DNA of 64,000 nucleotides, taken from positions 62,001-126,000 of the forward strand of contig MWCV01000003.1 in assembly GCA_002070215.1 (NCBI GenBank). The letters run 5' to 3'. A program made the translations under genes and the position numbers. Under the pieces are notes generated by a model. It did no database searches, was not told the origin of the DNA, and was given only the letters and a program-made list of their open reading frames with translations. The stretch comes from Chloroflexi bacterium ADurb.Bin180 (GTDB lineage: Bacteria > Chloroflexota > Anaerolineae > UBA2200). This document shows, in pieces, positions 6,506 through 48,193 of the stretch. The first letter of the stretch is position 1; every line of letters begins with the position of its first letter.

Positions 6506-7948
6506 TTGCCGGACGATTTGGACACGGTTAAGCAAACAGACATCGACCTGCAGGATACCGCCGATGCCCTGTACTCTCGCGGGATGACGCACTACCGGCG
6601 ACGCGAGTGGCAGGAGGCGAGGGAGAGCTTTCTTCGGCTCAAGTCCATCTCGCCCGAACGTCGTGGGGTGGATGCCCTGCTGAACGAGGTTGATCTCTTT
6701 CTGCAGTTGGAAGCCATGCAACCAGAGCAGCCCGCCGAGGCTCCGACCACCAGTCCTGAGACCACACTCCCGGAAATGAGCGTGCCCGCAGCCCCTGAAC
6801 CCTCTGCCGCTCTGCCAGGCCCCACAGTGGCTCGGCGCCGCTCTCCGGCCGCGGTGATTCTGATCCTGGCAGCCCTGCTGATGGTTGCCTTCATCGTTCT
6901 CTACGCCACCGGGGTCCTGGACCAGATACTGGGCACGCAGCGGCAGGCGCGGGTAGAGGTCCTGGTGAACCAGGGCCGTGCCGCGCTGAACGTGGGTGAT
7001 TATGACCGCGCCGCGGCGCTCTTTGGCGAGGCTCTCGGACTGGCACCGACCAATGAAGAAATCAAGACCTGGTATATGAAGGCCCAACGCTATCAGCAAC
7101 TGGCCTCGCTCTATGAACAGGCTCAAGTAGACATCGCTGGACAACGCTGGGATGCTGCACTGGAAAAACTGGAACAAATGCTGGCCATCGATCCCAGCTA
7201 CCGTGATGCCACTGCAAAAGTCGACTTTGTCAAAGCCCAGCGGACGCTGGACGCCCGGTTTGCGCAGGCCAAAACCGTGTTCGACAGCGGCGACTGGGCA
7301 GAAACGGTCAAGCTGCTCGAACCACTCCGAGAGGAGGCTCCCGACTTTCGCCCTGACGAGGTCCAGCAGACGCTCTTCTTCGCTCATTTCCGTATCGGTG
7401 TGGACCTCCTGGCCTCTTCGGGCGACTCGCTTGAGTCAATAGGCCAGGCCATCCAGAGTCTGGACAGGGCACTGGCCATCTTCCCCACCGACCCTGCCGC
7501 ACTCGAGGAGCGCAGATTGGCCGACCTCTACCGTCAGGCCCGGCTTTCCTTCAATCAGAAGGACTGGCCGCAGGCCGTGCTCACCCTGAAGCAGATCCAG
7601 TCGGTCAGACAGGACTATATGGGCGGCAGAGCAGTAGTCATGCTGTGCACTGCCTATCTGAACCTCGGTGATGCCTACTATGCCAGCCGCAACCTGGCCG
7701 AAGCGTTGGAGCAGTACAGAAGCGTCCTGGCAATCACCGGCTGCGACCATGTCGAAGCGGCGATGAAGGAGCGCGAGGTCTACGCCATTCTCTACCCGCC
7801 TACTCCGACACCGACCAACACCCGCACCCCGACGCGCACGCCTCGCGCGACACTCACTCCAACAATGACTGCTACTCCGATGCCGACCGCGACATCCGCC
7901 GGTCCGCCTCCCCCGCCGCCGACTGTGCAGCCGTTCCCGACGCGCTAG
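6506..7948 (+). CDS. Membrane-anchored TPR protein with Thr/Pro-rich tail
   Basis: I place the start at TTG 6506, six bases after AGGAG (6495-6499); no ATG gives as complete an N-terminus. Residues about 18-70 form a TPR-like helical pair in the cytoplasm. Residues about 113-137 are a single transmembrane helix preceded by RRR. Residues about 145-420 are several further TPR-type helical repeats (GRAALNVGDYDRAAALF, LEKLEQMLAIDP), expected outside the membrane. The last 50 residues are Thr/Pro-rich with a short poly-Pro run. TPR proteins scaffold other proteins; the partner is unknown. The gene sits 43 bases after the Ig-repeat gene and 14 bases before the propeller-like gene, so the three probably work together. 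Confidence 0.85.
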   Translation: MPDDLDTVKQTDIDLQDTADALYSRGMTHYRRREWQEARESFLRLKSISPERRGVDALLNEVDLFLQLEAMQPEQPAEAPTTSPETTLPEMSVPAAPEPSAALPGPTVARRRSPAAVILILAALLMVAFIVLYATGVLDQILGTQRQARVEVLVNQGRAALNVGDYDRAAALFGEALGLAPTNEEIKTWYMKAQRYQQLASLYEQAQVDIAGQRWDAALEKLEQMLAIDPSYRDATAKVDFVKAQRTLDARFAQAKTVFDSGDWAETVKLLEPLREEAPDFRPDEVQQTLFFAHFRIGVDLLASSGDSLESIGQAIQSLDRALAIFPTDPAALEERRLADLYRQARLSFNQKDWPQAVLTLKQIQSVRQDYMGGRAVVMLCTAYLNLGDAYYASRNLAEALEQYRSVLAITGCDHVEAAMKEREVYAILYPPTPTPTNTRTPTRTPRATLTPTMTATPMPTATSAGPPPPPPTVQPFPTR

Positions 7949-7962
7949 TAGCGGGAGCAACA

Positions 7963-9444
7963 ATGGCAGCCCTTTCCCTGCCTGACCGAAGGTCGAACGG
8001 AGGACAGGCCGCCCCCAGGCCCATCACCGTGCTTCCTCGCTGGCGCAGGCGCATCGCTCAGTTGCTGGCTATCCTGGCTGTCTATACACTGCCGTTGCTG
8101 GCGCTGACACGACAGCCAACCCAAACGGACATCTGGCTCCAGACCGGGATCGCTCACCAATCGGTGCACCGGGTGGCGGTCGGTGCAGGAACACCTCCAA
8201 CCACTTATGCCCTGCTGACTCAGGGGGGTATCAAGCGCAGCTCCGACGAAGGCATCACCTGGCTCGCCGTCGATGGCGACCTGCCCTTTGAACGTTGGGG
8301 GCAGATTCGCATCGAGGCCCTCGCGCTTGATCCCTTGCATCCCGACCTGCTCTTGTCAGGAATGGCCGGACGCGACGCGCGCGACCCGGCCAGGAGCGCC
8401 GGGCTGTATCTGTCCGTTGATCAGGGGCACACATGGCAGGCTCCGGGCCGGGTTTTTGCCGGCCAACAGGTTCAAGCCATTGCCATCTGCACCCCTCCTC
8501 ATAGCCGCTACATCTGCGTCGCGACTGATGCGGGGATCTACTGCACCGAGCTGACCGACGACGGGGTGCGGCCCGCTGCCAACGTAGCGTGGCACCGCCT
8601 CGACTGGCGCGGATCAGATGCCAGGATAACGACCATGGCCATGTCACCAGCCAACGCGAGCTTGCTCTTTGTTGGTACCGACAGCCTGGGGCTATATATT
8701 ACTCGCGATGCTGGCAGCACCTGGTCAGCAGTGCCGCTCGACAACGCGGCGCTGCGCGTCAATGACTTGATGATTGCCACCGCCAACGCCGACTGGGTAT
8801 ACGTGGCCACGGACTGGGGTGTCTACAGGTCGACCGACGGAGGCGCCTGGTGGGAACTTGCACCCGGCCTCCCCGCCAACAGGCCCGTTCTGGCTCTGGC
8901 GGGCGATCCGCGCAGTGCACGAGTCCTGTACGCCGGCCTCGACGGCAGCGGAGTCTACCTCACCGTTGACGGAGGGTCGAGCTGGCGCGAGCTCAAGACC
9001 GGCATCGGAAACGCCCGGGTGTCTTCGCTGGTCGTCGACCCGACCGATCCCCGTATTGTGTGGGCAGCCACTGCCGAGGGTCTCTGGCGGTATGTGCACC
9101 AGGCCGATCCTCTCGAGGCACCAGCCCCTGGCGCCACTGAGGCTGCTTCGCCTGCTCCCATCGACACAGAGACGCCTGAGGCGAGCGCCACAGCCAGACC
9201 GACCCAGACCATCACCTCCACGCTGACGGCCACTGCCCTCCCGCCGACGCCGACGAGCACGCCTGCGCCTACCTTCACACCCACGCCGAGCCCGACAGTG
9301 CCTACGGCTACGCCCGCACCGACGCACACCACCATCGCTAGCCCTACGCCGATCCCGCTGCCGACGGAAACACCCACGCAGATCCCAACGGCGACGGACA
9401 CGCCCCGCCCGATTGTGCCCACAGCCACCCTGGTGCCACGGTAA
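7963..9444 (+). CDS. Membrane-anchored BNR/Ycf48-like beta-propeller protein with Thr/Pro-rich tail
   Basis: The 493-residue protein has a basic N-terminus and one transmembrane or signal-anchor helix at about residues 29-48. Residues about 55-380 contain repeated Asp-box/BNR-like motifs (S.D.G.TW, VDGGSSW, SVDQGHTW) with strand patterns and VDP.DP.IVWA units, as in Ycf48-like and sortilin-type propellers. Residues about 386-493 are a Thr/Pro-rich low-complexity linker. No sialidase catalytic set was seen, so a binding or sensing propeller is more likely than an enzyme. Its TAA stop overlaps the ATG of the histidine kinase gene (TAATG), which suggests coupled translation and a possible role as an extracytoplasmic input to the kinase. 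Confidence 0.85.
   Translation: MAALSLPDRRSNGGQAAPRPITVLPRWRRRIAQLLAILAVYTLPLLALTRQPTQTDIWLQTGIAHQSVHRVAVGAGTPPTTYALLTQGGIKRSSDEGITWLAVDGDLPFERWGQIRIEALALDPLHPDLLLSGMAGRDARDPARSAGLYLSVDQGHTWQAPGRVFAGQQVQAIAICTPPHSRYICVATDAGIYCTELTDDGVRPAANVAWHRLDWRGSDARITTMAMSPANASLLFVGTDSLGLYITRDAGSTWSAVPLDNAALRVNDLMIATANADWVYVATDWGVYRSTDGGAWWELAPGLPANRPVLALAGDPRSARVLYAGLDGSGVYLTVDGGSSWRELKTGIGNARVSSLVVDPTDPRIVWAATAEGLWRYVHQADPLEAPAPGATEAASPAPIDTETPEASATARPTQTITSTLTATALPPTPTSTPAPTFTPTPSPTVPTATPAPTHTTIASPTPIPLPTETPTQIPTATDTPRPIVPTATLVPR
9118..9435 (+). repeat. Thr/Pro-rich low-complexity coding segment
   Basis: About 105 codons encode almost only Thr, Pro, Ala, Ser and a few Glu, in PTPTSTPAPTFTPTP-like runs. 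Similar segments occur at the end of the neighbouring TPR gene (about 7798-7945) and three times in the large hydrolase gene (about 50008-50055, 52210-52440 and 54610-54735). Such segments are extended linkers and are common acceptors for O-glycosylation in other systems; glycosylation here is inference. Confidence 0.8.
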
Positions 9445-11762
9445 TGCAACAAAGGCAAGAAATGGCCAGCAGACATCCGGCCGAGCCAACCAGATACTTT
9501 GACCTGGTTCTGCGCAGCGAGCGCTTTGTGGGCCTACCCGCCAAGCTGGCGATGCTTCTCATCGGCCTTTATGTGCTGCGCTCTGCGGCGCAGATGTCAA
9601 CGCAGCAGCTCCTGGCCGTTGGAATCGTCCTTTACGCCATCTCGACCCTCTACTTCGCCTTCCTGCTGTTCGCGCGTCCCCGGGAGGTGGAACGTCTCGG
9701 GCGCGGTGTTTTCTTCACCTTCTATCTGCTGGACATCGCACTGGCCGCGTTGATCATCTACGTGTCCGGTCCAGCCTCCGATTCGCTCTTTCTTCTGGTG
9801 CTCCTGGCATTCAAGTCGGTTTTGTACTACCCGCTGTGGCACGACGTGTTCTTGTTCACACTGGCCCTCGGACCGCTGGCCCTCGCCATCCTTCGGCTGA
9901 ACCTCCAGTCATGGAACTTTGTGGCGGATCCCTTCGTGTTGCGGCGGTACCTCCTGCTGCTCTCCGCTGTGCTGGCTTCGCTCTACCTGAGCTGGCTGAA
10001 CGAGCACAGCCAGACCCTCCAGGTGCGCCTTCGCCGGAGCCTGGACGAGCGCACCGCGGATCTCGACAGCAAGACACGCGCCATGCAGCAGATGGCCACC
10101 AGCCTCGGCAATCGCGTGCTCGAGCTGCGAACGCTCCAGGAGGGCGTCAAGGCCATCAACTCGGCACTGGCACTGGAAGACGTCCTGCGACTCATTGTGG
10201 CCAACGCTTCCCAGGTGCTCGAAGGCGCCCGGTGCTCCGTCGCGCTGCTGGACGAGTCACCGGAGCGAGTTACCTCCACCGCTGCCAGCGACGGCAGAAC
10301 CGCGTCTCTGGCCGAGTTGGATCATGCGGCGGTGAGCTGGATGGCCGGGAGGGGAGAGCCCCTCATGATCGAGGACCTGCGGCACGACGAGCGCTTTGAC
10401 CTCCAGGGGCTGCCGCTTGCCTCGGCCATCGGCGTTCCGCTCCTCCTCGATGAGCAGGTGATTGGTGCGTTGATCGCCACCAGCATCGAGCCGCGGGCTT
10501 TTTCCGGCGAGGACGTGAATCAGCTCAACGCTTTCGCCGATCAGGCCGTGGTAGCGGTCAAGAACGCCAGACTGTACGAGCAGCTCGTTCAGGAGCAGCG
10601 GGAGACCGAGCGCGTGTACCAGCACGTCCAGGAACGGAGAAACGAGCTCGAAGCCATTCTGCGTGCCATTGGCGACGCGGTGATCGTGGCCGACGCCCAG
10701 TTGAACCTGCTATTGATGAATCCCGTGGCCACACGCATCTTTGGCGTCAAGCCGGACGTTACCAGCAGCATGCCGCTGTCGCAGGTTATCCAGCATCAGG
10801 ATCTCAACGAGTTGCTCGTCTCCGCCTTGAACGGCGAGCACGGAGAGGCGCTCGTGAAAGAGATCCTTCTGCCTTCGGCCGACGGCCAGTCATCTCCGAC
10901 CCTGCAGGCACTGGCTTCGCCAATCCAGGCGGCAGACGGACTGCCGCGTGGTGTCGTGGTCGTGCTCAGGGATGTCACCAGCCAGAAGGAACTGGAGCGT
11001 ATGAAGTCCAGTTTTCTCTCTGTGGTTTCGCACGAACTGCGCACCCCTCTGCACTCGATCAAGGGGTTCGTGGACATCATCCTGATGGGCAAGACCGGCG
11101 AAATCAATGAGACCCAGACTGACTTTTTGCGCACCGTTCGCCAGCAGACAACTCACCTGCAGAACCTCATCGACGACCTGTTGGAGTACTCCCGGCTCGA
11201 GTCGGGCCAGGTCAAGCTGCGGCTCTCTGAAGTGTCTCTGACCGAAGTCGCGAACGCGGTGATTGACAAGCTCAAGCCTCTGGCCGACCAGGGCCAGATC
11301 CGTCTGTTGAACAAGCTGCCTTCCCGCCTCGCTTCGGTGGAAGCGGATCGCCTGCGGCTGGAGCAGGTGCTGACGAACCTCATCGACAACGCGATCAAGT
11401 TCACCCCGCCCGGCGGAGCGATCACTGTGTTGGGCAAGGACCTGGGTGCCGACTTGCAGATTAGCGTGAGCGATACCGGCATCGGTATCCCGGCGTCCGC
11501 GCTGGAGCGAATCTTTGACCGTTTCTTCCAGGTAGACAGCAGCGCCTCGCGGTCATACCGCGGAACGGGGCTCGGGCTCACCATCTGCAAGCACATCGTG
11601 GAGCATCATCGCGGCAGAATCTGGGCCGAGAGCGAGCCAAACAAGGGTAGCACCTTCCACTTTGTGCTGCCCAAACGTCTCTCGGCCAAAGACGACGAGC
11701 TGCTGCTCGATTTCCTCGTTCTCCCCAAGTCCCGCAAGCGCAGGGGCAACAGCGCCCACTAG
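9444..11762 (+). CDS. Membrane sensor histidine kinase (TM-GAF-PAS-HisKA-HATPase)
   Basis: The 772-residue protein starts with about six transmembrane helices (residues about 30-185), then a coiled-coil linker. A GAF domain covers about 240-380 and a PAS domain about 398-515. The HisKA domain has the H-box SVVSHELRTPLHS with the phospho-acceptor His530. The ATPase domain shows the N-box (NLIDNAIKFTP), G1 (DTGIGIP), F-box (IFDRFFQ) and G2 (GTGLGLTICKHIVEHH), so it should be an active kinase. It is translationally coupled to the propeller-like gene and has no receiver domain. The response regulator at the left edge is a plausible partner. Confidence 0.95.
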   Translation: MQQRQEMASRHPAEPTRYFDLVLRSERFVGLPAKLAMLLIGLYVLRSAAQMSTQQLLAVGIVLYAISTLYFAFLLFARPREVERLGRGVFFTFYLLDIALAALIIYVSGPASDSLFLLVLLAFKSVLYYPLWHDVFLFTLALGPLALAILRLNLQSWNFVADPFVLRRYLLLLSAVLASLYLSWLNEHSQTLQVRLRRSLDERTADLDSKTRAMQQMATSLGNRVLELRTLQEGVKAINSALALEDVLRLIVANASQVLEGARCSVALLDESPERVTSTAASDGRTASLAELDHAAVSWMAGRGEPLMIEDLRHDERFDLQGLPLASAIGVPLLLDEQVIGALIATSIEPRAFSGEDVNQLNAFADQAVVAVKNARLYEQLVQEQRETERVYQHVQERRNELEAILRAIGDAVIVADAQLNLLLMNPVATRIFGVKPDVTSSMPLSQVIQHQDLNELLVSALNGEHGEALVKEILLPSADGQSSPTLQALASPIQAADGLPRGVVVVLRDVTSQKELERMKSSFLSVVSHELRTPLHSIKGFVDIILMGKTGEINETQTDFLRTVRQQTTHLQNLIDDLLEYSRLESGQVKLRLSEVSLTEVANAVIDKLKPLADQGQIRLLNKLPSRLASVEADRLRLEQVLTNLIDNAIKFTPPGGAITVLGKDLGADLQISVSDTGIGIPASALERIFDRFFQVDSSASRSYRGTGLGLTICKHIVEHHRGRIWAESEPNKGSTFHFVLPKRLSAKDDELLLDFLVLPKSRKRRGNSAH

Positions 11763-11856
11763 TACTGGCCGGGCCGGCGTCGCCACCGCAAATGGCCTTG
11801 CCAGCGCAGTTCCGTCTCCCTCTTGCCCGCCCCGTGCCAAGCAATCGAACATAGTT

Positions 11857-11876
11857 GAAGAGATATACATCTCTTC
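11857..11876. promoter_or_regulatory. Perfect 8-bp palindrome, candidate operator
   Basis: GAAGAGAT at 11857-11864 and ATCTCTTC at 11869-11876 form a perfect inverted repeat around ATAC. It ends four bases before the -35-like hexamer at 11880, a usual place for a repressor or activator site. The AT-rich palindrome stands out from the GC-rich surroundings. The helix-turn-helix protein encoded just downstream is an obvious candidate to bind it, but that is inference. Confidence 0.5.
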
Positions 11877-11879
11877 TGC

Positions 11880-11908
11880 TTGACGCGAGTGGCAGATGTG
11901 CGTATTGT
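11880..11908 (+). promoter_or_regulatory. Putative sigma-70-type promoter upstream of the glycan cluster
   Basis: TTGACG at 11880-11885 and TATTGT at 11903-11908 are separated by 17 bases. The -35 matches the consensus at five of six positions and the -10 at four of six. It lies just right of a palindrome and about 115 bases before the first gene of the glycan cluster, so the transcript would have a long leader containing the direct repeats at 11951-11980. Confidence 0.5.
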
Positions 11909-11950
11909 TAGCCGTCGCCGGAGGAGCGTTCATCTACCATTAATCTCATC

Positions 11951-11980
11951 CCGGTACAATGCAGGTGGTCCGGTACAGTG
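11951..11980 (+). repeat. Direct repeat CCGGTACA(A/G)TG in the leader of the HTH gene
   Basis: CCGGTACAATG at 11951-11961 recurs as CCGGTACAGTG at 11970-11980, with one mismatch and a 19-base period, close to two helical turns. This spacing places the copies on the same DNA face, as in tandem binding sites. The element lies between the candidate promoter and the ATG at 12024. An RNA-level role is also possible. Confidence 0.45.
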
Positions 11981-12023
11981 GTAGCTAACCCAAACGCCCG
12001 GACTTGGCCGGAGGTCAAACTCG

Positions 12024-12482
12024 ATGGCGCTCTATGTGCGCAAGACAACTGAAGCAGAGGACAGGCAGCTCAGAACATGGAGTGCCGGGAAGGACCCGAC
12101 ACTGAGACACCGAGCCAAGGTAGTGCTGCTCTCGAGCCAGGGCTACCGTGTTCCTGAAATCGGCCCGCTACTGGGCTCTCATCCGGCCAATCTCCGCAAG
12201 TGGATTCACCGCTTCAACCGGGACGGCTGCGACGGACTGCGTACCGTCCGCTCCGGCGGTCCCCGCGTTCGCATCTCTTCACAGCAACGTTCCGCAATTG
12301 TCAATCTCGCCCGGGCACGTCCCAGAGAGATGGGTCTTAACTTTACGAGCTGGACACTACACCGTCTGGCCCAGCAAGCCGTCAAGGCGGGGATCGTCGA
12401 CCGCATCAGCCACGAGTACGTGCGGCAGATCCTGCTACAGGCCGGATATGAAGGTCGAGGGGATAAGAGTCTGCACCAATGA
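12024..12482 (+). CDS. Stand-alone IS630-type helix-turn-helix protein (possible domesticated regulator)
   Basis: The 152-residue protein matches the N-terminal DNA-binding half of IS630/Tc1-mariner-like transposases. A first HTH spans about residues 25-65 (LRHRAKVVLLSSQGYRVPEI then NLRKWIHRFNRDG), then a LRTVRSGGPR linker, and a second winged HTH at about 85-145 (SWTLHRLAQQA, SHEYVRQILLQAGY). The reading frame ends where the DDE catalytic domain normally begins, so it cannot transpose. No terminal inverted repeats were seen around it. Its stop overlaps the next ATG (ATGA, 12479-12482), so it is translationally coupled to the radical SAM gene. It may be a transposase remnant or a recruited regulator; the intact frame and coupling favour the second. 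Confidence 0.75.
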   Translation: MALYVRKTTEAEDRQLRTWSAGKDPTLRHRAKVVLLSSQGYRVPEIGPLLGSHPANLRKWIHRFNRDGCDGLRTVRSGGPRVRISSQQRSAIVNLARARPREMGLNFTSWTLHRLAQQAVKAGIVDRISHEYVRQILLQAGYEGRGDKSLHQ

Positions 12483-13945
12483 AAATCGCACTGATTGCAC
12501 CCAAATGGAACAAGAAGGCCAATGACTATCCCCCTCTTGGCCTGGCCTATCTCGCGGCGGTAATGGAGCAGTCCGGCCACGAGACCAGGATTTTTGACCT
12601 GTCCTTGGACCCGGATTCGTCGCTCGAGGCAGATGCCGATTCCATTGTTGCCTTCGATCCACAGCTCGTCGGCATCACCGCTATGACCAGCCTGTACCAG
12701 AGTGCGCTCGAGACGGCCACTCTTCTCAAAGCCAGGCTGGGGCGGCCCATCGTAATTGGCGGCCCTCACGCCACGATGTTCCCCGAGCGTCTGCTCACCG
12801 AGTCGCCAGTGCTCGACTATGTCGTGCGCGGCGAGGGCGAGTTGACACTGCGTGAACTGGTGGAGGCACTCGAAGGCCAACGGGACCTCTCTTCGGTGGC
12901 CGGGCTAACCTATCGTGTCCGCAGCGAGGTAGTCTCAAACCTGGACCGAGAGCTTCTCGCCGATCTCGACAGCCTGCCTTTCCCGGCGCGCCAGCACTTT
13001 GACCTGAGCCGCTACGGTCTGCGCACTCCGCAAGGCCAGCCGATGGTCACTATCCTCTCGAGCCGGGGCTGCCCCTACAATTGCAGCTACTGCTTCAAAG
13101 GGATCGTGGGACGCACCTACCGCCATCGCAGCCCGCAGAACATCATCGCTGAGATCAAGCAGGTCATCGGCCAGACAGGAATTCGCAGCTTGTACTTCAT
13201 TGATGATCTCTTCACCGCCGACGTCAAACGGCTTTCGGAGCTGATGGAACTGATGATCGCTGAGAAACTGGACATCCGCTGGCAGTGTCTGGCCCGTGTT
13301 GACCGGGTAACCCCCGAGGTTCTCAGGACAATGTACGCCGCCGGCTGCCGGCGAATCCATCTGGGTATCGAGTCCGGAAACCCGGATGTTCTCAAACAGA
13401 TCAGCAAGGGCATCAAGCTCGACCAGGTGCGCCAGACAGTGCGCTGGGCCAAGGATGCCGGGATTCAAGTCAAGGGTTATTTCATGCTGGGGCTGCCAGG
13501 CGACACCGAGGCCACCATGCAGCAGACCATTGATCTGGCGGTCGAGCTCGACCTGGAAGAGGCCATGTTCAGCCTGACCACCCCCTTTCCCGGAACGCGC
13601 CTGTGGGACGAACTGGTCAAACGACATCCAGAGACAGAGTACAACCAGGACTTTACCCGGGCCTACTACTACTCCAACTCGGACGAAGAGGTCGTTCCTT
13701 TCTTGAACGTATCAGAAGTATCCAATGAAGTCCTGGGGGAGTGGATGCGCAAGGCGCACGATGCTCTGGCCGCCGCCAAGGCGCGAGACGCGTACCGCAA
13801 TGCCTTCGGTTCTCGCCTGGGGCCAGTGCTGTGGCGATTGGCCCGGGTGCCGCCCTTGCGTGCCCTTGGCCGGCGAATGGTGAGACTCGGGCTCTTTCAG
13901 CGCTTTGCCAGCATGCGCACCAGAGAGGTCAAGCTATGGTCATGA
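12479..13945 (+). CDS. B12-binding-domain radical SAM protein
   Basis: The 488-residue protein has an N-terminal cobalamin-binding-type Rossmann domain (residues about 1-150: IALIAPKWNKKANDYPPLGLAYLAAVMEQ is the usual opening, shown here only as a family pattern around residues 3-31). The radical SAM core follows with the 4Fe-4S cysteines C198, C202 and C205 in GCPYNCSYC. A motif for SAM and substrate binding follows (GIESGNPDVLKQISKG, GYFMLGLPGDTEATMQQT). The usual DxHxxG cobalamin ligand motif is not obvious. Such enzymes methylate or rearrange unactivated carbons in lipids, antibiotics or sugars; the substrate here is unknown. It overlaps the HTH gene by four bases and the next gene by ten. 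Confidence 0.88.
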   Translation: MKIALIAPKWNKKANDYPPLGLAYLAAVMEQSGHETRIFDLSLDPDSSLEADADSIVAFDPQLVGITAMTSLYQSALETATLLKARLGRPIVIGGPHATMFPERLLTESPVLDYVVRGEGELTLRELVEALEGQRDLSSVAGLTYRVRSEVVSNLDRELLADLDSLPFPARQHFDLSRYGLRTPQGQPMVTILSSRGCPYNCSYCFKGIVGRTYRHRSPQNIIAEIKQVIGQTGIRSLYFIDDLFTADVKRLSELMELMIAEKLDIRWQCLARVDRVTPEVLRTMYAAGCRRIHLGIESGNPDVLKQISKGIKLDQVRQTVRWAKDAGIQVKGYFMLGLPGDTEATMQQTIDLAVELDLEEAMFSLTTPFPGTRLWDELVKRHPETEYNQDFTRAYYYSNSDEEVVPFLNVSEVSNEVLGEWMRKAHDALAAAKARDAYRNAFGSRLGPVLWRLARVPPLRALGRRMVRLGLFQRFASMRTREVKLWS

Positions 13946-14937
13946 CCAGGGTGCGCCGTCTCGCAGAGCACTACTCGCGCCGGGCGGAGAACCTGGCCAA
14001 GTGGGTTTCCTACCGTACTGGCATGACGCGCCTGTACACCTACCCGGATCGCATGTACATCGAGTCCACCAACATCTGCAACCTGCAATGCGTGATGTGC
14101 CCTAACGGATTGGGGCAGTTGGAGCGCCAGAAGGGATACATGGATTGGGATCTCTTTACGCGCATCGTTGACGAGATGGCACCCCACGTCCAGACGACCA
14201 CGCTCCACATCTGGGGTGAGCCGCTCTTGCACCCGCGCATCTTTGACATGATCGCTTACTGCACCAGCCGTGGTCTGCACAGTGAGATATCGACCAACGC
14301 CACGCTGCTTACCGAAGAGGCCAGCCACAAGATCCTCGCTGCCGGTCTGGGAGCCATCTACCTCTGCCTTGATGGGGCAACGCGAGAGACCTACGAACAG
14401 GTTCGGCGCCGTGGCGACTTTGAGCAGGTGCGTGCCAACATCCTGCGTTTCGTCGAGCTGAAGAATCAGGTCGGCGGAGGGCCGCGGGTGAGTCTCCAGA
14501 TCATCAACATTCGTCCCACCGCCGCGGAAGTGGAACAGTTCAAGGCCATCTGGACGATTCCCGGCGTGGACCGCGTGCACATCAAGGCCTTTGACTCCTG
14601 GGGTGGGCAACTGCAGGAGATCAGTGATCTGCGCTCGGCCGACGACCGCGTGCAGCTCCCACCCAAGCGCTATCACTGCCCGAACCTGTGGTATCACGTG
14701 CACATCTACTGGGATGGCTCGCTGGTCTGCTGTGACCGCGACTTTAACGCCCTGAACCCGCTCGGCAACGTCAGGGACGGCGTGATGAAGGCCTGGAACG
14801 GCCCGCGGATGATCGAGCTCAGACGGAAACACCTCTCGGGGCGTCTGGATGACGTACCCTCCTGCAGCAAGTGCGTGGAGTGGAGCTGGTGGAAGCCCAC
14901 GCCATTCTCGTCCCACGGCAATGCGCCGCAGCATTGA
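13936..14937 (+). CDS. Radical SAM/SPASM domain protein
   Basis: I choose ATG 13936, seven bases after GAGAGG (13923-13928); ATG 13942 is an alternative. The frame is open further upstream, but that part overlaps the preceding gene out of frame and looks like a shadow. The 333-residue protein has the radical SAM cysteines C48, C52 and C55 (CNLQCVMC), a HIWGEPLLHP segment after strand 2, and a C-terminal SPASM-like cysteine set (HCPNLWYH, LVCCDRDF, CSKCVEWSWW) for auxiliary Fe-S clusters. SPASM enzymes modify peptides, sugars or lipids. Its place beside membrane glycosyltransferases suggests a role in the cluster product, but the substrate is unknown. Confidence 0.88.
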   Translation: MVMTRVRRLAEHYSRRAENLAKWVSYRTGMTRLYTYPDRMYIESTNICNLQCVMCPNGLGQLERQKGYMDWDLFTRIVDEMAPHVQTTTLHIWGEPLLHPRIFDMIAYCTSRGLHSEISTNATLLTEEASHKILAAGLGAIYLCLDGATRETYEQVRRRGDFEQVRANILRFVELKNQVGGGPRVSLQIINIRPTAAEVEQFKAIWTIPGVDRVHIKAFDSWGGQLQEISDLRSADDRVQLPPKRYHCPNLWYHVHIYWDGSLVCCDRDFNALNPLGNVRDGVMKAWNGPRMIELRRKHLSGRLDDVPSCSKCVEWSWWKPTPFSSHGNAPQH

Positions 14938-14947
14938 AGGATTCTAG

Positions 14948-16420
14948 ATGCGCAGGCGGCTTGAAAACCTGCTGCCAGTGATGGTTGTGTTGCTGGCGGC
15001 GCTGGTACGTTTCTGGGGACTGGCCAGAGAGAGCATCTGGCTCGACGAGGCTACCAGCATCATGATCGCCCGAATGGACGTGCGTACCCTGATCGTGTGG
15101 GTGGCGGCGGACATTCATCCGCCGCTGTACTACCTGCTGCTTCACGCCTGGGTCGCGCTGGGCCAGAGCGAGTTCGTGGTACGGTCGCTGTCGGTGTTGT
15201 TCGGTGTGGGGACGGTGGCGGTCACCTGGGCGCTGGCCCGTGAGCTTTTCGATTCTCGAGTGGCCCTGTTCTCCGCGCTGCTCCTGGCACTGTCTCCCCT
15301 CCACGTGTTCTACTCGCAGGAGGCAAGGATGTACGTCGCCGCCGCGATGTGGAGCACCCTGGGCAGCTACCTGCTCTTGCTGGCACTGCGCCGCGGCTCG
15401 CGCGCCTACTGGCTGGGCTACTTCCTGGCCAACACGCTCGCCCTCTACACGCACTACTTTGCCGCCTTTGCGCTGCTGTTTCAGGCGCTCTACGCTCTGT
15501 TGCACGTCTGGAAAGGGCAGGCACGGCCAACACCGGCGCTCCGCCGCTGGCTCTGGAGCACGGCCGGGATTGGCATCGCCTTTCTTCCCTGGCTGCCAAC
15601 GCTGGTCCGCCAGGTGCTGGGCGGCGGAGGGGGCTGGGTCGAGAGAGCCATTGGCCGGCCTTCCGCGATGTCCCTGGTCGACACCTGGCTTCAGTTCAGC
15701 GTTGGTCTGGAGGGTCATCTCTATCCGGCCGCTTTGCGCCGCATAGCCTATCTGCTCTTTGCCGCCCTCCTGTTGAGCGCAGTGATCGCCGCGCTTCACT
15801 CCCGCGGGGACGGCGCCCCGGCTCGCTACAGAGATGGTGTGCTGTTCTGCGTTGGTTCTGTTGTCCTTCCCCTCGGCCTGATCTGGCTTCTGTCGCAGTG
15901 GAAGCCAATGTACACCATACGCTACCTGCTGGCCTTCCTTCCTCCCTACTATATCTGCGCCGCCGCGGGCCTGCGCAACCTGCGGTGGAAGGGCTTGCAG
16001 CTTGTCACAGCATTCACTTTGCTGCTGATCCTGACTGCTGGCGTCTGGTACAACTACCAGGCGCCGCAAAAGCCGGACTGGCGCAGCGCGACAGCATACG
16101 TCGTTGCCCGAGTTCAGCCCGGCGATGTGGGCCTCTTCTCTCCGCGCTGGAACTACAAGCCGTTCGACTACTACGCTCCCGGGCGCCTGGAGCTCGATCT
16201 CGACTTGCCGGTGCCGACCACCGCAGAAGCGGCTCAAGCCGCGGTCAACGACATCAGCCAGCGGTTCAAGCGGGTCTGGTTCTTCTGGGAGGAGGATCAC
16301 TACGGCGACCCGCAGGGCATTGCCAAGAGACTTCTCGATCAGCGTCTCCGCGTCTTGGAGACAACTCAGTTTCCCGGCGTTGGCTCGGTGATCCTCTATC
16401 AAGTTCCGGGTGTGCAGTAG
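14948..16420 (+). CDS. GT39/ArnT-like membrane glycosyltransferase
   Basis: The 490-residue integral membrane protein has about ten hydrophobic helices. The first external loop carries the catalytic-type acidic pair D33-E34 (IWLDEATS) and then HPPLYYLLLHAW, both typical of the GT39/PMT_2 family that uses polyprenyl-phosphate sugars. The ending after the last helix (DWRSATAYVV) is a soluble external domain. It starts eleven bases after the radical SAM gene. It is closely similar in layout to the next gene, a tandem paralog. The sugar and acceptor are unknown. Confidence 0.88.
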   Translation: MRRRLENLLPVMVVLLAALVRFWGLARESIWLDEATSIMIARMDVRTLIVWVAADIHPPLYYLLLHAWVALGQSEFVVRSLSVLFGVGTVAVTWALARELFDSRVALFSALLLALSPLHVFYSQEARMYVAAAMWSTLGSYLLLLALRRGSRAYWLGYFLANTLALYTHYFAAFALLFQALYALLHVWKGQARPTPALRRWLWSTAGIGIAFLPWLPTLVRQVLGGGGGWVERAIGRPSAMSLVDTWLQFSVGLEGHLYPAALRRIAYLLFAALLLSAVIAALHSRGDGAPARYRDGVLFCVGSVVLPLGLIWLLSQWKPMYTIRYLLAFLPPYYICAAAGLRNLRWKGLQLVTAFTLLLILTAGVWYNYQAPQKPDWRSATAYVVARVQPGDVGLFSPRWNYKPFDYYAPGRLELDLDLPVPTTAEAAQAAVNDISQRFKRVWFFWEEDHYGDPQGIAKRLLDQRLRVLETTQFPGVGSVILYQVPGVQ

Positions 16421-16421
16421 C

Positions 16422-17933
16422 ATGGCCGCTAGCGCGCGCGTCGGCGAGATCCCTGTGAGCAGTGCCCGCAGAGTCCTGCTGGCTATCATCATTCTTGGGG
16501 CGGCACTGCGCCTGTTCCAACTGGGAGCCGAAAGCTTCTGGTTCGACGAGGCATACAGCGTCTGGGTGGCGCGCCACAGCCTGGTGTGGCAGTTCTCACT
16601 CAGCATGCAGCGCATCTTTCCGCTTCTGTACTATGTGCTGCTCCACTTCTGGCTGCGCCTCGGATCATCAGAGCTCGTCGTCCGAGCCCTGTCCGCCCTG
16701 GTCGGAATCGGCTCCATCGCTGCACTCTACGCTCTGGCTCGTGACCTGTTTGACCGACGCACGGCGCTGCTCAGTGCCTTCTTCCTGGCCGTGTCGCCGC
16801 TCCACCTCTGGTTCTCGCAGGAAGCCCGCATGTACATCCTCGCGGCCGGGCTAGGTATATGCTCCGCTCACTGTCTGCTGTTGGCGTTACGAACCTACGC
16901 TCAGCCAGGCTCTGAGCAACGCCGGCGCCCCTGGCTGTGGCTAGGCTACATTGTGAGCACGGCTTTGGCCGTGAACGCCCACTACTTTGCCCTTTTCCTG
17001 ATCCCCTTCCACAACCTCTCCGTGCTCTACGTGCTCCTTCGGAAGCGGCCGGACCGGTCGCTGCTCTGGCAATGGTTCCTGTGCCAGGCCGCGGTAGGTC
17101 TGCTCTCTCTGGCGGGACTGGCCGGCGTGTTCAGTGACGAGTCTCGTTACTGGTGGAGCCTGCTCGATGCGCTGCACGGCGCTCCCCGTCTGGGGGATCT
17201 GCTGCGCCTGCTCTTCCATTTTAGTCTCGGCACGACCGTCGAGAGCTCCCTTCTGCTCAAGGCAGCATTGCTTGCCTTCGGTGGCTGCGCTGCCTGGTCT
17301 GTGCTTCAGGTTCGGAATGGCCGCCTCCGTCTCCACATCGATGAGGGGTTGTTGTTCACCCTGCTCTACCTGCTGGTACCCCTGGGAACGGTCTTTGTCT
17401 ATTCCCAGGTCCGCTCTTCCTGGGTGCTGCGTTACCTTTTCCCCTTCCTGCCGCCCTACTGTATCCTGCTGGCGCGGGGGTTGCTGAACCTGCCAGCGCG
17501 CCTGCCCAGAATCGTACTGGCGCTGGTATTGCTCCTGCTCACCCTGTGGCCTCTGGTCAACACCTACCGCATACAGCAGAAAGAGGACTGGCGCAGCGCC
17601 GCCGCGCTCATCTCGCTCCAGGAGCAGCCAGGCGATGTACTGCTCACCGTTGACGAGGACATCTGGCTGCCCTTTGAACACTACTACACCGGATCCCTCT
17701 ACTATCAGGGCATCAGCCGAGACATCACCGATCCCGACTTGCTCAGAGCCAGGGTCGGGCAGGCCGCACTGGCCAACCATCGCGTGTGGCTACTGCTCAG
17801 CCACACCAACAACGTCTTGCTGAAGGATGTGCTGCGGCAGTTTCCCAACAGTCGGATGGTCCTGGAGCAGCACTTTTTGAACGTCGAGGTGGACTTGTTC
17901 AACCTGAGCACAACGAACGGGGGCGGAAGCTAG
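16422..17933 (+). CDS. GT39/ArnT-like membrane glycosyltransferase
   Basis: I choose ATG 16422, two bases after the previous stop; GTG 16410 is an in-frame alternative that would overlap it. The 503-residue protein has about ten transmembrane segments and the acidic pair D42-E43 in SFWFDEAYS, followed by IFPLLYYVLLHFW in the first periplasmic loop. Shared features with the preceding gene include FFLAVSPLHLWFSQEARMY near helix 3-4 and a DWRSAAALISLQEQPGDV external C-terminal domain, so the two are likely a tandem duplication. Activity as a polyprenyl-phosphate-sugar-dependent transferase is inferred from the family. Confidence 0.87.
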   Translation: MAASARVGEIPVSSARRVLLAIIILGAALRLFQLGAESFWFDEAYSVWVARHSLVWQFSLSMQRIFPLLYYVLLHFWLRLGSSELVVRALSALVGIGSIAALYALARDLFDRRTALLSAFFLAVSPLHLWFSQEARMYILAAGLGICSAHCLLLALRTYAQPGSEQRRRPWLWLGYIVSTALAVNAHYFALFLIPFHNLSVLYVLLRKRPDRSLLWQWFLCQAAVGLLSLAGLAGVFSDESRYWWSLLDALHGAPRLGDLLRLLFHFSLGTTVESSLLLKAALLAFGGCAAWSVLQVRNGRLRLHIDEGLLFTLLYLLVPLGTVFVYSQVRSSWVLRYLFPFLPPYCILLARGLLNLPARLPRIVLALVLLLLTLWPLVNTYRIQQKEDWRSAAALISLQEQPGDVLLTVDEDIWLPFEHYYTGSLYYQGISRDITDPDLLRARVGQAALANHRVWLLLSHTNNVLLKDVLRQFPNSRMVLEQHFLNVEVDLFNLSTTNGGGS

Positions 17934-17934
17934 A

Positions 17935-19563
17935 ATGCTGCGCTGGATTCAGAAGCATCACCTGGTCCTGATTCTTCTCCTGGGGTTGGCGTTTGCTCTT
18001 CCGCTGCTGAATGCGCATCTCGTGCCGGCGGGAGACAACTCGACCTACCTCGTGCTGGCCCAGTCCCTGGCCACAGGCCAGGGATACCGGATGATCAGTG
18101 ATCCCCGGGCGCCCCAGATGGGCCTCTACCCGCCTGGCTACTCGCTCCTGCTGGCCGGCGTGACGCTGGCAACCAGTACAACGGCCAACCTTCTTGAGGC
18201 TATCCTGCCCTCCAAGATCCTGTCGGTGTTCCTCTACCTGGCCACGGTCGCCCTCGTCTACCTGCTGCTGTTGCCGCGCAGCCGGCTGCTGGCAGCTCTC
18301 ACAGCACTGGCCGCGGCCGTCAATCCGGCCATCCTGCATTTCGCCACCGAAGTGGGCACCGAACTGCCCTACCTGCTGCTGTCACTGGCCTGCCTGTGGG
18401 CCTACGACCGCTATGTTCGCCGAGAGAGCTGGCGGCAGCTCGGCCTGACGGCCCTGCTGATTGTTCTGGCTTTCTACGTGCGCAGCATAGCCCTGGCCAT
18501 TGCCGTTGCTCTGGCCCTGCATCTCGTCCTTCGCCGGCGTTTCGGTCAGGCAACAGTGCTGCTGCTGGTTGTCGGTGTGCTGGTTCTGCCCTGGTTCGTG
18601 CGCGGAGCGTCCCTGCCCGATACGGGCACCTCCGTAGGCCTCGGTCGCGGCTACTTTGACCTCTACTTTACCAGTGATCCCTATGGTACCGCCCCCGCCA
18701 GCTTGTCGGATTGGACCACCCGCCTGTTGCAGAACGTGTCTAGCTATGTGCTTGATATCTGGCCGAACACCGTCTTTCCACACGCGTCGCGCCTGGTTTC
18801 GCTCCTTGGCACTGGCGGAACGATTCTGGTCAGTCTGATCACGGTCCTGATCGCTTACGGTTATGTGCTCGAGCTCAAACGGCGCTCAGCAACCGAGTGG
18901 TACGCCGGGCTGTTCTTCCTCTCCTGCGTTACCTACATGTGGGCCCAGAGCCGACTCATCGTGCCGATCATCCCCTTCGCCATCTACTACTTGTTCGTCG
19001 CCGCCCAGCATCTCCTTGAGCGGCTGGTGTTTCGGCCGGCCGCGGCCAGACCGGCATCCGACTCGACCAAAGCGACGCCTCGCGAGAGGACCACCGGCCT
19101 GGTTCTCGGTCTGGGCTGCGCAGTCTTGGTCGCCTCCGCACTGGTGGTCGAGGTGCGCCGGGTGCAGACGAACGTCTGGTACGGCTGGCATCAGCCTCTG
19201 CAGGTGTACTACTCGCCCGACCCGGAATGGGACCATTACCTTCAGGCGATGGAATGGATCAAAGCCAACGGGGAGGCCTCGAGCATCGTTATGTGCCGCA
19301 AGGCCGACCTGATGTACATCGTCACCGGCCTACAGGCACTGGAGTACCCCTACTCCTACGAGCCGGCTGACCTCAAGAGTGCCATCGCTGACAACAAAGT
19401 AGACTACCTCATTGAGGATGCCTTCTCCTGGACTGGCACGACGACGCTCTATCTGCAGCCTGCGCTGTCCGCCTGGCAGCAGGCCGAACCGCAGGCACTG
19501 TCCATGATGTTCGAAACCGAGGCGCCCGTAACGCGTGTGTGGCGCAGCGAGAAACCCAATTAG
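17935..19563 (+). CDS. GT39-like membrane glycosyltransferase with GDN instead of DE motif
   Basis: The 542-residue protein begins one base after the previous stop. It has about ten to eleven hydrophobic helices and a GT39-like topology with YPPGYSLLLAG in the first external loop. The position where the family normally has Asp-Glu reads G33-D34-N35, so the aspartate is kept and the glutamate is lost. This may mark a different donor, a different subfamily or a non-catalytic protein. A helix-rich middle and a soluble external end (YSPDPEWDHYLQAMEW) are present. An excellent Shine-Dalgarno sequence for the next gene directly follows its stop. Confidence 0.82.
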   Translation: MLRWIQKHHLVLILLLGLAFALPLLNAHLVPAGDNSTYLVLAQSLATGQGYRMISDPRAPQMGLYPPGYSLLLAGVTLATSTTANLLEAILPSKILSVFLYLATVALVYLLLLPRSRLLAALTALAAAVNPAILHFATEVGTELPYLLLSLACLWAYDRYVRRESWRQLGLTALLIVLAFYVRSIALAIAVALALHLVLRRRFGQATVLLLVVGVLVLPWFVRGASLPDTGTSVGLGRGYFDLYFTSDPYGTAPASLSDWTTRLLQNVSSYVLDIWPNTVFPHASRLVSLLGTGGTILVSLITVLIAYGYVLELKRRSATEWYAGLFFLSCVTYMWAQSRLIVPIIPFAIYYLFVAAQHLLERLVFRPAAARPASDSTKATPRERTTGLVLGLGCAVLVASALVVEVRRVQTNVWYGWHQPLQVYYSPDPEWDHYLQAMEWIKANGEASSIVMCRKADLMYIVTGLQALEYPYSYEPADLKSAIADNKVDYLIEDAFSWTGTTTLYLQPALSAWQQAEPQALSMMFETEAPVTRVWRSEKPN

Positions 19564-19577
19564 GAGGAAGTTCGAAA

Positions 19578-19931
19578 ATGAATCCCAAGATCTTGCTGTT
19601 CGTCGCCATTTTCCTGGCGGCGGTAGGCCAGTTGCTGATGAAGACCGGCCTGAATCAGCTCGGGGGCCTGACCCAGATCAATCTGTCCGTGTTCTTCAAG
19701 ATGATCTTTCAGCCCTTTGTTTTCTCGGGCATCATGAGCTACGGCTTTGGCTTCATCGCCTACCTCTTTGCGCTGACCAAGCTCGACCAGAGCTATGCCT
19801 ACCCGATGTTCGCCCTGGGCTATGTGATCGTGCCGGTGTTCAACTGGGTTGTCTTCCACGAGCCCTTTTCCGTGCTGCGGCTCGTGGGCATTTTCCTGGT
19901 GCTGGGCGGAGTGACCCTCATCAGCCGCTAG
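19578..19931 (+). CDS. Small EamA/SMR-type four-helix membrane protein (ArnE/ArnF-like)
   Basis: The start is ATG 19578, seven bases after AGGAGGAAG (19562-19570); an upstream in-frame ATG lies inside the previous gene and is rejected. The 117-residue protein has four transmembrane helices with AVGQLLMKTGL in helix 1 and a final LVGIFLVLGGVTLISR helix, as in the EamA/SMR superfamily. The closest functional models are ArnE and ArnF, which flip undecaprenyl-phosphate-aminoarabinose. Surrounded by ArnT-like transferases, it is likely to help move polyprenyl-phosphate sugars across the membrane. As in SMR proteins, it would need to dimerise. Substrate is inference. Confidence 0.85.
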   Translation: MNPKILLFVAIFLAAVGQLLMKTGLNQLGGLTQINLSVFFKMIFQPFVFSGIMSYGFGFIAYLFALTKLDQSYAYPMFALGYVIVPVFNWVVFHEPFSVLRLVGIFLVLGGVTLISR

Positions 19932-19942
19932 GGGCGTAAACC

Positions 19943-21901
19943 ATGCCCGTCAGCATTGGTATGGACAATCGAATGACTCGTAGGGCGCGCTCTTCCGGGA
20001 TGCGTGCTCACCTGTTCGCGCTGGCGGGCTTGGCTCTGCTGAGCGTCGTTCTGACCTACCCGCTGATCATTCATCTTGGCAGCAGAATACCGGGGCCTCC
20101 TGCTCCCGGTGACAACCTGGAGTACGTCTACAAGGTGTGGTGGTTCAAGCACGCGCTGTTTGAGCTCAGTCCCGCCACGCCCTTTTTCAACCCGAACGCC
20201 TTCTATCCCTTTGGCTATCCCGTGACCCTGTCGGAGACCACGCTCTCCAATACGATACCAGCGCTGCCACTGACCCTCGTCTTCGGTGAAGTGGTCGCCT
20301 ACAACCTCACCCTGCTGGCGTCGTTCATTCTCTCTGCCCTGGGGATGTACCTGCTGGTGTTCGGCTGGACGCACTCGCGCTCAGCCGCGTTTGTGAGCGG
20401 CATGATCTTTGCCTTTTGCCCGTACCGCCTTTCCCATATGGGCGCGGGGCATCTCCCGCTAATGGGTACGCAATGGCTGCCCTTCTTGCTGCTCTTCCTT
20501 GACCGAATGGTCACCCACGGGCGGCGAAGGGATGCGGTCCTGGCTGCCCTGTTCTATGTCCTGGGCGCTCTATCGGCCTGGTACTATGCCTACATCTATG
20601 CGCTGGCTGGGCTGGTCTTTGTGCTGCTCAGAGCCCGCCTCTGGCGGAAACTGCTTTTCACTCGCCGGTTCGTCATTGCTTCAGTCACCTTCGGTGTCAT
20701 CTGCCTGGTGCTCCTCGGCCCGCTGGTCTGGCCGGTCACCCGGTTGTGGAGCCAGGGTAGCCGCCCGGGGTCGCTCAAGTATGTGGACAGCTTTTCCGCC
20801 AGTCCTCTGGATCTGGTCTATCCCAACGTACTGCAACCGCTCTGGGGGACCGCCCTCTTGCGTTGGTACAGCCAGAACCCAAACGAGAACAACCTCTACC
20901 TGGGGTTGGTTCCACTGCTGCTCACGGCGGTGGCCCTGGTGTCGGTCCGGCGACGTCGTGCCACTTCTTCGTCGACCGGTCGGCAGAAGGACGACGGTCG
21001 GCGCCGCCTGGTTTCTGCGATAGCCTGGATGACGGTGGTCTTTCTGGTACTGGCTCTGGGGACAACCCTCCACGGCAAGTGGGGGCCGCTGTACATTCGC
21101 GTTCCGGCATCTGTCGAGCGGGTATTCACCGCGGGGATGACGCTGCTCACCAAACATCTGGCGCTCTACCCCATTTCTTCCTACAGCCTGCGCGTTGAGG
21201 ACCACATCTTTGTGCCATTGCCAACTCTGCTGTTGTACCTGTTCTTGCCGTTCTTCAATGCCATGCGAGTTTGGACCAGAATGGCCATCGTGTCGATTGC
21301 CGGGGTGGCCATACTGGCCGGGTTTGGCTGGGCGTGGCTCTCCGGCCGGATTGCCACGGCTCGACCAGACAGCCGCCTCGCGACTCGCGTTGGTCTGGCC
21401 CTCGCAGCGGGGCTGATCGTGCTCGAATTCGCCGCCTTTCCGTTCGCTCTGGGCATGACCACTGTCTCCGCCAGACCAGTGGATCAGTGGCTCGCCACCC
21501 AGCCAGGAGACTGGTCAGTGATGGAGCTGCCACTGAGCAAGGGGCTCTCGGGCCGTGCCCTCTACGCACTGCGCACCCACGGCAAAAGGACCAGCACCGG
21601 CTATGGCACCTTCTTTCCGCAGGCGTTCAACGAGGCGCGGCCAGTGCTCGAGTCCTTTCCCAGCCGCGAGTCGCTCGAGCTGCTGCAAGGCTGGAACGTA
21701 CGTTACGTGTTGCTTGGTTCCCGAACCTACGGTCAGGCCTGGCCCGCTCTGGAGCGCGCCTGCAACGATTCTCCCGGGCTGCGCTATGCGCTGGCCGTGG
21801 AAGACGAGCCAGTGTATTCGGGCGATCGGGTGTTGCGCTGGCTTCCCGGGACCGAGCCAGCGTTCCTGGTAGACCTGATCTATGTGTACGAGGTGCTGTA
21901 G
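19943..21901 (+). CDS. Large multi-helix GT-C-like membrane protein
   Basis: The 652-residue protein has about twelve transmembrane helices. The first external loop carries G56-D57-N58 (PGDNLEY) and NPNAFYPFGYP, a pattern seen in GT-C-like proteins and YfhO-type membrane proteins that decorate cell-wall polymers. Like the gene at 17935 it lacks the Asp-Glu pair. Its end (DWSVMELPLSKGLSGRALY) is a soluble external domain similar to those of the other transferases. ATG 19943 is used; an ATG at 19961 is possible. I cannot name the substrate. Confidence 0.8.
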   Translation: MPVSIGMDNRMTRRARSSGMRAHLFALAGLALLSVVLTYPLIIHLGSRIPGPPAPGDNLEYVYKVWWFKHALFELSPATPFFNPNAFYPFGYPVTLSETTLSNTIPALPLTLVFGEVVAYNLTLLASFILSALGMYLLVFGWTHSRSAAFVSGMIFAFCPYRLSHMGAGHLPLMGTQWLPFLLLFLDRMVTHGRRRDAVLAALFYVLGALSAWYYAYIYALAGLVFVLLRARLWRKLLFTRRFVIASVTFGVICLVLLGPLVWPVTRLWSQGSRPGSLKYVDSFSASPLDLVYPNVLQPLWGTALLRWYSQNPNENNLYLGLVPLLLTAVALVSVRRRRATSSSTGRQKDDGRRRLVSAIAWMTVVFLVLALGTTLHGKWGPLYIRVPASVERVFTAGMTLLTKHLALYPISSYSLRVEDHIFVPLPTLLLYLFLPFFNAMRVWTRMAIVSIAGVAILAGFGWAWLSGRIATARPDSRLATRVGLALAAGLIVLEFAAFPFALGMTTVSARPVDQWLATQPGDWSVMELPLSKGLSGRALYALRTHGKRTSTGYGTFFPQAFNEARPVLESFPSRESLELLQGWNVRYVLLGSRTYGQAWPALERACNDSPGLRYALAVEDEPVYSGDRVLRWLPGTEPAFLVDLIYVYEVL

Positions 21902-21902
21902 C

Positions 21903-23534: not shown

Positions 23535-23536
23535 CC

Positions 23537-48084: not shown

Positions 48085-48114
48085 ACGGGCATTCATCTGG
48101 CAATGGAACCCGTT
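48084..48114 (+). terminator. Weak hairpin after the acyltransferase gene
   Basis: AACGGG at 48084-48089 pairs with CCCGTT at 48109-48114, with an inner ATT/AAT pairing in the 19-base loop. The following bases are pyrimidine-rich (AATCCCCTTTTC) rather than a clean T-run. It sits exactly at the stop codon and before the first gap of about 110 bases in the cluster, so it could end the long transcript, but the hairpin is modest. Confidence 0.3.
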
Positions 48115-48193
48115 AATCCCCTTTTCATCTTCGTTGTCTAGAATAGTCTGCCAATCTGGCGGAATATCGAACCCTTCTATGCAAGGAAACATC

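Follow-up and report, generated by a model that had tools for sequence, protein, structure and literature searches.

The gene at positions 12024-12482 of the window, by which we mean the whole 64,000-nucleotide stretch of DNA analysed here, is well supported as a domesticated IS630 transposase half. We favour, with moderate confidence, the reading that this paired-HTH protein acts as a local regulator of the glycan operon that follows it, under the control of a two-component system. The features of domestication were all found, namely orthologs of conserved length, purifying selection, no mobile copies in the gene's own genome and a conserved genomic context.

An IS630 DNA-binding half that ends before the catalytic domain

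The reading frame is open over 152 codons starting at an ATG, is preceded by GGAGG (12010-12014) ending nine bases before it, and closes with a TGA stop that overlaps the ATG of the next gene (12479) as ATGA. The product matches HTH_32 (1.2e-14), HTH_23, HTH_29 and HTH_28, together with a weak Terminase_5 match, and no DDE domain was identified in the frame (Pfam). Residues 30-142 align to positions 2-110 of the 299 of the NCBIfam IS630 transposase model NF033545 (E 2e-16; 60 bits, the whole-family cut-off being 100). In an alignment with eight longer IS630-like proteins (232-373 aa, of which L117 has just 232 aa and L122 is cut by a contig end), the C-terminus falls opposite residues 153-167, shortly before the stretch carrying what by eye is their first catalytic Asp. 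The original prediction of an intact IS630 DNA-binding half that stops where the DDE domain would begin, and that overlaps the next gene by ATGA, is thus borne out. It had also reported neither terminal repeats nor a catalytic remnant, and this stands: no IS-like inverted repeats flank the gene in the stretch scanned (11763-12700), where the longest inverted pair (19 nt, 74%) has one arm within the gene, and the gene directly downstream is a radical-SAM gene.

The AF2 model of the protein (pLDDT 84, pTM 0.49) comprises two HTH units joined by a low-confidence linker. Foldseek returned no match to this model at E<=0.001, the best rows being TnsB and the Pax-6 paired domain. Pax5 and Pax6 lead a second structure comparison in which Prd ranks fourth (Z 6.7, 6.6 and 6.2, respectively), and the DNA-binding domains of TnsB, Mos1, SETMAR and Tc3 span both HTH units (Z 5.2-5.9). 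Structural neighbours over both domains superpose at an rmsd of 9-13 Å, which may perhaps be due to mobility between the two HTH units, and single-HTH sigma region-4 domains score about equally. We regard the likeness of the modelled protein to paired domains as fair, not as proof. A PDB sequence search with the protein gave nothing useful, the best match being a designed helical barrel (E 0.0016).

Conservation and selection

The window's genome (3.13 Mb in 170 contigs, 95% complete) holds no second copy of the protein, the sole match at E<=0.001 being the protein itself, and has no DDE_3 match; full-length IS630 copies, named in the original prediction as the sign of a recent truncation, were thus not found there. 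Matches at E<=0.001 occur in 34 of 60 genomes (own included). Within the class, the family profile matches at E<=1e-10 in 123 of 396 genomes, and tight orthologs (E<1e-60) are present in 23 of the 396. A collection scan returned 20 loci, 19 of which are tight orthologs and one of which (L064) is only 31% identical, all of them assigned by record titles to Chloroflexota, Anaerolineae, Anaerolineales, Anaerolinea or Ardenticatena-group MAGs. The homologs of similar length that had been proposed as a check do exist: among the 25 distinct tight-ortholog proteins that were extracted, length varies over 145-165 aa, and 15 more distant short relatives (138-187 aa) have no room for a DDE domain. A tree of 48 distinct sequences, made up of these 25 and 15 and the eight longer IS630-like proteins (232-373 aa), splits the 40 short proteins from the longer ones with support of 94.3/81 and unites the 25 tight orthologs in a clade supported at 99.9/99. 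Purifying selection, the other check proposed, is also evident, with dN/dS (Nei-Gojobori) of 0.04-0.18 in the 13 ortholog pairs that are closest by pN among those whose dS is finite. Half of the 300 pairs (150) have dS<3 and yield a median dN/dS of 0.18, with no value above 0.39; the other 150 are saturated or exceed dS 3. Across 20 orthologs, many positions within the predicted HTH units show no variation.

The single genome copy, the absence of DDE_3, the conserved length, the clade and the low dN/dS together identify the gene, by sequence criteria, as coding for a functional protein and not as a recent or decaying fragment. The similarity to the IS630 N-terminal half would also be explained if a recent IS630 insertion had decayed to this remnant, or if the gene were the orfA of a frameshifted IS630, but such an origin is contradicted by the lack of DDE_3 and of a second copy, by the radical-SAM gene directly downstream, by the conservation of length across families, by the low dN/dS and by the absence of flanking IS-like repeats. 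We reject this explanation and consider its probability close to negligible. Genome G034 carries two copies of the HTH gene (L026 and L027), 95% identical and on different contigs, each with an operator, reflecting either a duplication or an assembly effect. The second-tier matches (families f16, f18, f21, f24, f32 and f39) form a wider set of short IS630-HTH proteins in the class.

Genomic neighbourhood

The HTH gene stands between a conserved upstream gene set and the radical-SAM/glycosyltransferase operon (Table 1). The B12-binding radical-SAM gene is the next conserved gene in 14 of the 25 distinct tight-ortholog loci, distributed over families f1, f2, f9, f23 and f37, so that homologs are indeed found at the start of other glycan clusters, as had been proposed for checking. 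This neighbour was not shown in nine loci (L026, L027, L031, L050, L061, L062, L063, L133 and L109, the last counted with only 1.5 kb of flank), and the contigs of the other two, L054 and L058, end too soon to tell. Among those nine, a PMT-type gene lies near L050 and a GT2-type gene near L026 and L062, and an epimerase-type gene adjoins L031. The same sensor kinase is located upstream in 10 of the 25 loci, nine of which also have the Ig-like, TPR and BNR proteins.

Table 1. Features of the window discussed in the text, in order of position
Feature	Position	Strand	Remarks
OmpR-family response regulator gene, 3' end	1..398	+	62% to the G085 regulator whose own promoter carries the operator
Ig-like surface protein	544..6462	+	Conserved neighbourhood
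TPR protein	6506..7948	+	Conserved neighbourhood
BNR/Vps10-type protein	7963..9444	+	Conserved neighbourhood
GAF-PAS-HisKA sensor kinase	9444..11762	+	Conserved just upstream; NCBIfam best PnpS, WalK and PhoR, all below cut-off
HTH-linked element GTTGAAGAGATATACATCTCTTC	11854..11876	+	Candidate autoregulatory site of the HTH protein; BTTGAARA counts
Further upstream half-site, weak form ATGAnnnnnTTGTMA	11895..11911	+	Fails the loose regex used for the counts
OmpR-type direct-repeat operator and -10 box, TTCATC-N5-TTAATC-N9-TACAAT	11929..11960	+	
Stand-alone IS630-type paired-HTH protein, 152 aa	12024..12482	+	Pfam, NCBIfam, AF2 model; first HTH at residues 25-72, second HTH at residues 86-139
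B12-binding radical SAM protein	12479..13945	+	Next gene of the operon after the HTH gene
Radical SAM/SPASM protein	13936..14937	+	Conserved third gene
PMT_2-type glycosyltransferases, PTPS-related membrane protein, GT2 glycosyltransferase of the operon	14948..25731	+	Pfam; PMT_2-type gene at 17935 below Pfam's cut-off
Second operator-promoter copy	48113..48144	+	Before the methyltransferase gene (48194) that starts a second cluster

The original prediction had further described the gene as a coupled first gene of the cluster. The ATGA overlap exists in the window, in G001 (L002) and in G003 (L005), whereas the gap between the HTH and radical-SAM genes elsewhere ranges from ~40 bp to ~1.7 kb (L029); among the 10 tight relatives L002-L011 only L002 and L005 have the overlap, which is absent from G002, G005 and G006. 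We reject conserved ATGA coupling as a general feature. The same distribution bears on a selected role that involves no DNA binding, such as that of a leader gene setting downstream expression by translational coupling. The three overlaps are compatible with such a role, but the intergenic gaps in other genomes and the many invariant residues of the predicted HTH units are not what it would lead one to expect, and we consider it very improbable.

The operator-promoter and its wider distribution

The consensus of the operator that precedes the HTH gene is TTCATC-N5-TTCATC-N9-TAnnAT (18 defined positions), that is, tandem half-sites with an 11-bp period before a -10 box. An 11-bp direct repeat ahead of the -10 box is the site arrangement of the OmpR/PhoB family. 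The operator was found at 14/18 or better upstream of 22 of the 25 orthologs, each of the 22 exceeding all of its 200 shuffles (which, as for BTTGAARA and the regulator promoters, keep base composition only), and was not found upstream of L011, L061 and L063. Across 11 genomes the pattern gave 24 matches in nine, against two for the reversed control, both in G005. A stricter form allowing at most one mismatch was present, among the matches listed, in 111 of the 396 class genomes versus three (G221, G280 and G308) for the reversed control. A further half-site resembling ATGAAnnAATTGTMA, counted with a loose regex, precedes the operator in 15 of 20 HTH promoters, five of 10 radical-SAM promoters and 18 of 35 other promoters, the last set including repeats and one HTH promoter.

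The genes following the operator elsewhere code for bacterial sugar transferases (L065, L146 and L149; Pfam), a DUF11 surface protein (in L138 according to Pfam, elsewhere by eye), the methyltransferase cluster of the window (48194; Pfam) and glmS (L084, by eye), and three are OmpR-family response regulator genes (L136, L142 and L144; Pfam). The operator-promoter is part of a wider, putative envelope regulon. Several individual occurrences were also noted. In L146 (G135:C3) a sugar transferase gene and an HTH gene stand in tandem, each with its own operator copy; L073 (G001) has a site and gene like the second operator and methyltransferase of the window; and in L074 the gene after the operator codes for a protein with an AAA_22/TniB-like ATPase domain, L083 being similar by eye. 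The window also encodes, at 49257-55181, a protein of 1974 aa that combines prolyl-oligopeptidase/esterase-type domains with CBM96 and a dockerin match.

The operator is probably read by the two-component system of the same neighbourhood, consisting of the regulator at 1-398 and the kinase at 9444. Among the genes of the window's genome, none is closer to the G085 regulator whose promoter carries the operator than this regulator gene, which lies 11.6 kb before the HTH gene. No operator was present within 450 bp upstream of the window's own response-regulator gene, nor for five close relatives examined, so that G085 is the only genome in which an operator before a regulator of this type is known. 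In L136 and L142 (G092 and G329) the regulators, with the operator in their own promoters, seem by eye to belong to a different OmpR subfamily, suggesting that more than one regulator may read it.

We considered whether the HTH protein itself might bind the TTCATC direct repeats and run the whole envelope regulon. Such a role would accord with the operator upstream of 22 of the 25 orthologs and with the occurrence of the motif (at most one mismatch) in 19 of the 23 tight-ortholog genomes, among the matches listed. However, the repeats occur without the gene: the operator is present in G007, G045, G076, G092, G326 and G366, in none of which the HTH protein has a match at E<=1e-10, and the 111 class genomes with the motif, among the matches listed, include HTH-free ones. 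The operator moreover precedes OmpR-family regulator genes, and its 11-bp arrangement is of the OmpR/PhoB type. We therefore disfavour this role for the HTH protein as improbable.

Lineages without the HTH gene

The radical-SAM gene was detected at E<=1e-170 in 43 of the 396 genomes, the tight HTH gene being present in 11 of these and absent from the other 32. In 20 radical-SAM loci taken from these 32 genomes, many of which hold a distant HTH relative elsewhere, the 600 bp before the radical-SAM gene contain the operator at 14/18 or better in 11, above 100 shuffles each (again keeping base composition only), and no operator was found over that distance in the other nine. In G004, a member of the same family as the window's genome, and in the three f3 genomes examined, G007, G045 and G076, the kinase gene is followed by the operator and this by the radical-SAM gene, with no HTH gene in between. 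In these four genomes the distance from the first base of the operator to the radical-SAM gene is 181-215 bp, leaving a gap of ~150-185 bp that is too short for an HTH gene. Since the same locus start occurs without the HTH gene, the operon does not need it. Sequence comparison places the operator with the operon, and the HTH gene appears as an optional layer that was either inserted between promoter and operon or lost, loss within family f1 being the simpler reading.

The HTH protein is predicted to bind DNA and regulate the cluster. It is at most an added regulatory layer and not the sole regulator of the cluster, because the operator exists without the HTH gene and G004 and the three f3 genomes carry the operon start without it. 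The original prediction of a recruited transposase HTH acting as cluster regulator survives in part: the checks on length, selection, operon linkage across several families and full-length IS630 copies, none of which was found in the genome, came out in its favour, but a sole-regulator role does not fit an operator and operon start that occur without the gene.

A candidate binding element linked to the HTH gene

The original prediction had pointed to a palindrome and to a direct repeat. Both are present upstream of the gene, the palindrome as GAAGAGAT at 11857-11864 and ATCTCTTC at 11869-11876 and the direct repeat as CCGGTACA(A/G)TG at 11951 and 11970, the former copy overlapping the -10 box. 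Inspection by eye of the aligned upstream regions of relatives did not show the direct repeat, which is for that reason rejected as an operator. A sequence that lies upstream of the operator in HTH loci, GTTGAARA(A/G)AT, forms part of the palindrome in the window, where GTTGAARA is at 11854. Its core BTTGAARA occurs in 15 of 23 HTH promoters (leaving out L027 and L058, near-copies of L007), versus one of 20 radical-SAM promoters without the HTH gene and two of 31 other distinct operator promoters (the 35 above minus one HTH promoter, L076, and repeated sites); this motif was chosen after viewing the sequences and related sequences inflate the count, so that the figure is descriptive. Shuffled HTH promoters contain it in 0.95 of 23 on average and in at most four. 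It was not found in eight of the 23 (L006, L051, L061, L099, L101, L106, L108 and L109). In an open k-mer comparison GTTGAA was present in 14 of 23 versus eight of 55, ranking behind TATATGA, ATTGTAA and similar words. Both orientations of the element are represented, the reverse one in L007, L050 and L062, and the element is kept in L011 and L063, which are without the operator and the radical-SAM neighbour.

The long form of the element (at most two mismatches) was found in four of seven genomes, namely G000, G001, G002 and G005, each of which has one copy upstream of the HTH gene. One further match in G000 brings that genome to two places, and the reversed control gave none. G003 and G006 gave no such match although they have the HTH gene, and G004 lacks both gene and long form. 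This distribution points to a predicted local, autogenous control rather than to a broad regulon. It also bears on the possibility that the protein is a conserved DNA-binding protein with another role, either nucleoid-type or in defence against IS630 by occupying its ends, whose place in the operon only secures co-expression. The nine of 25 loci in which no radical-SAM neighbour was seen, the lineages that run the operon without the HTH gene, and the presence of more distant short family members elsewhere in the class would all suit such a role. Against it stand the repeated linkage to the same operon in f1, f2, f9, f23 and f37 and the existence of an HTH-linked upstream element whose long form occurs at only one other place in the genome, and we consider it unlikely, though less so than the other alternatives.

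For the favoured reading of the protein as a local regulator of the glycan operon, the following mechanism may be proposed. Once the DDE nuclease was lost, the bipartite HTH of paired, Pax/Tc3-like type would have been retained to bind DNA. In the promoter of the gene, an operator of the OmpR-family response-regulator type takes the place of the -35 region. As first gene on the transcript, the HTH gene would be co-expressed with the radical-SAM/glycosyltransferase operon. The likeliest target of the protein is the GTTGAARA element, which lies ~53-75 bp upstream of the operator, and binding there would tune the protein's own promoter, giving feedback control of surface glycan synthesis. The position of the element beside the upstream half-site would allow either competition with the response regulator or help to it.

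Relation to known systems

In a group of environmental Anaerolineae, where it is often the first gene of a surface sugar operon, the HTH gene probably encodes a regulator. Many orthologs are available, G004 and its family provide a natural comparison for loss of the gene, and the candidate site is short, which makes the question of a regulatory role testable, and the analysis exposes a small two-component-type envelope regulon in a poorly studied class. With IS630 family transposases (ITm superfamily) the protein shares the bipartite HTH N-terminal half; it differs from them in having no DDE domain, no flanking repeats found, a single copy in the genome and recurrent synteny. We found no report of an IS630 HTH half as a bacterial regulator in the open-licence papers covered.

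Pax proteins are kin to Tc1-type transposases. The paired HTH of the modelled protein resembles that of animal Pax paired-domain factors and the SETMAR DNA-binding domain, Pax5, Pax6 and Prd being among its best PDB neighbours. Unlike these, it is bacterial, has no homeodomain or SET fusion and is known from sequence and a model, and the similarity is modest (Z 6.2-6.7), with sigma region-4 about equal. A more specific proposal, which we put forward tentatively and at slightly less than an even chance, is that the family is the bacterial equivalent of Pax. On this proposal, an IS630 paired-HTH half would have been exapted no later than the radiation of several Anaerolineae families, bringing its own binding element along, and would serve as an autogenous regulator between a two-component promoter and the radical-SAM glycan operon, open to gain or loss by lineages without disturbance of the promoter.

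TldR proteins originate from TnpB and have lost the nuclease. They are described as RNA-guided regulators of cell-surface genes (PMC13418256); the HTH protein would likewise be a transposon-derived putative regulator of cell-surface genes but, unlike the RNA-guided TldR, is a plain HTH protein whose function is predicted. Transposase-derived transcription factors are known in animals (PMC10027918). Among bacterial transcription factors recruited from mobile elements, one review names Ner/SfsB and antitoxin-derived Xre and RHH regulators (PMC8987985), and the term IS630 has no occurrence in that review. As in those cases, a mobile-element DNA-binding domain would here have entered host regulation, with the difference that the Xre and RHH domains named there come from phages and antitoxins, whereas the source here is an IS630 transposase half.
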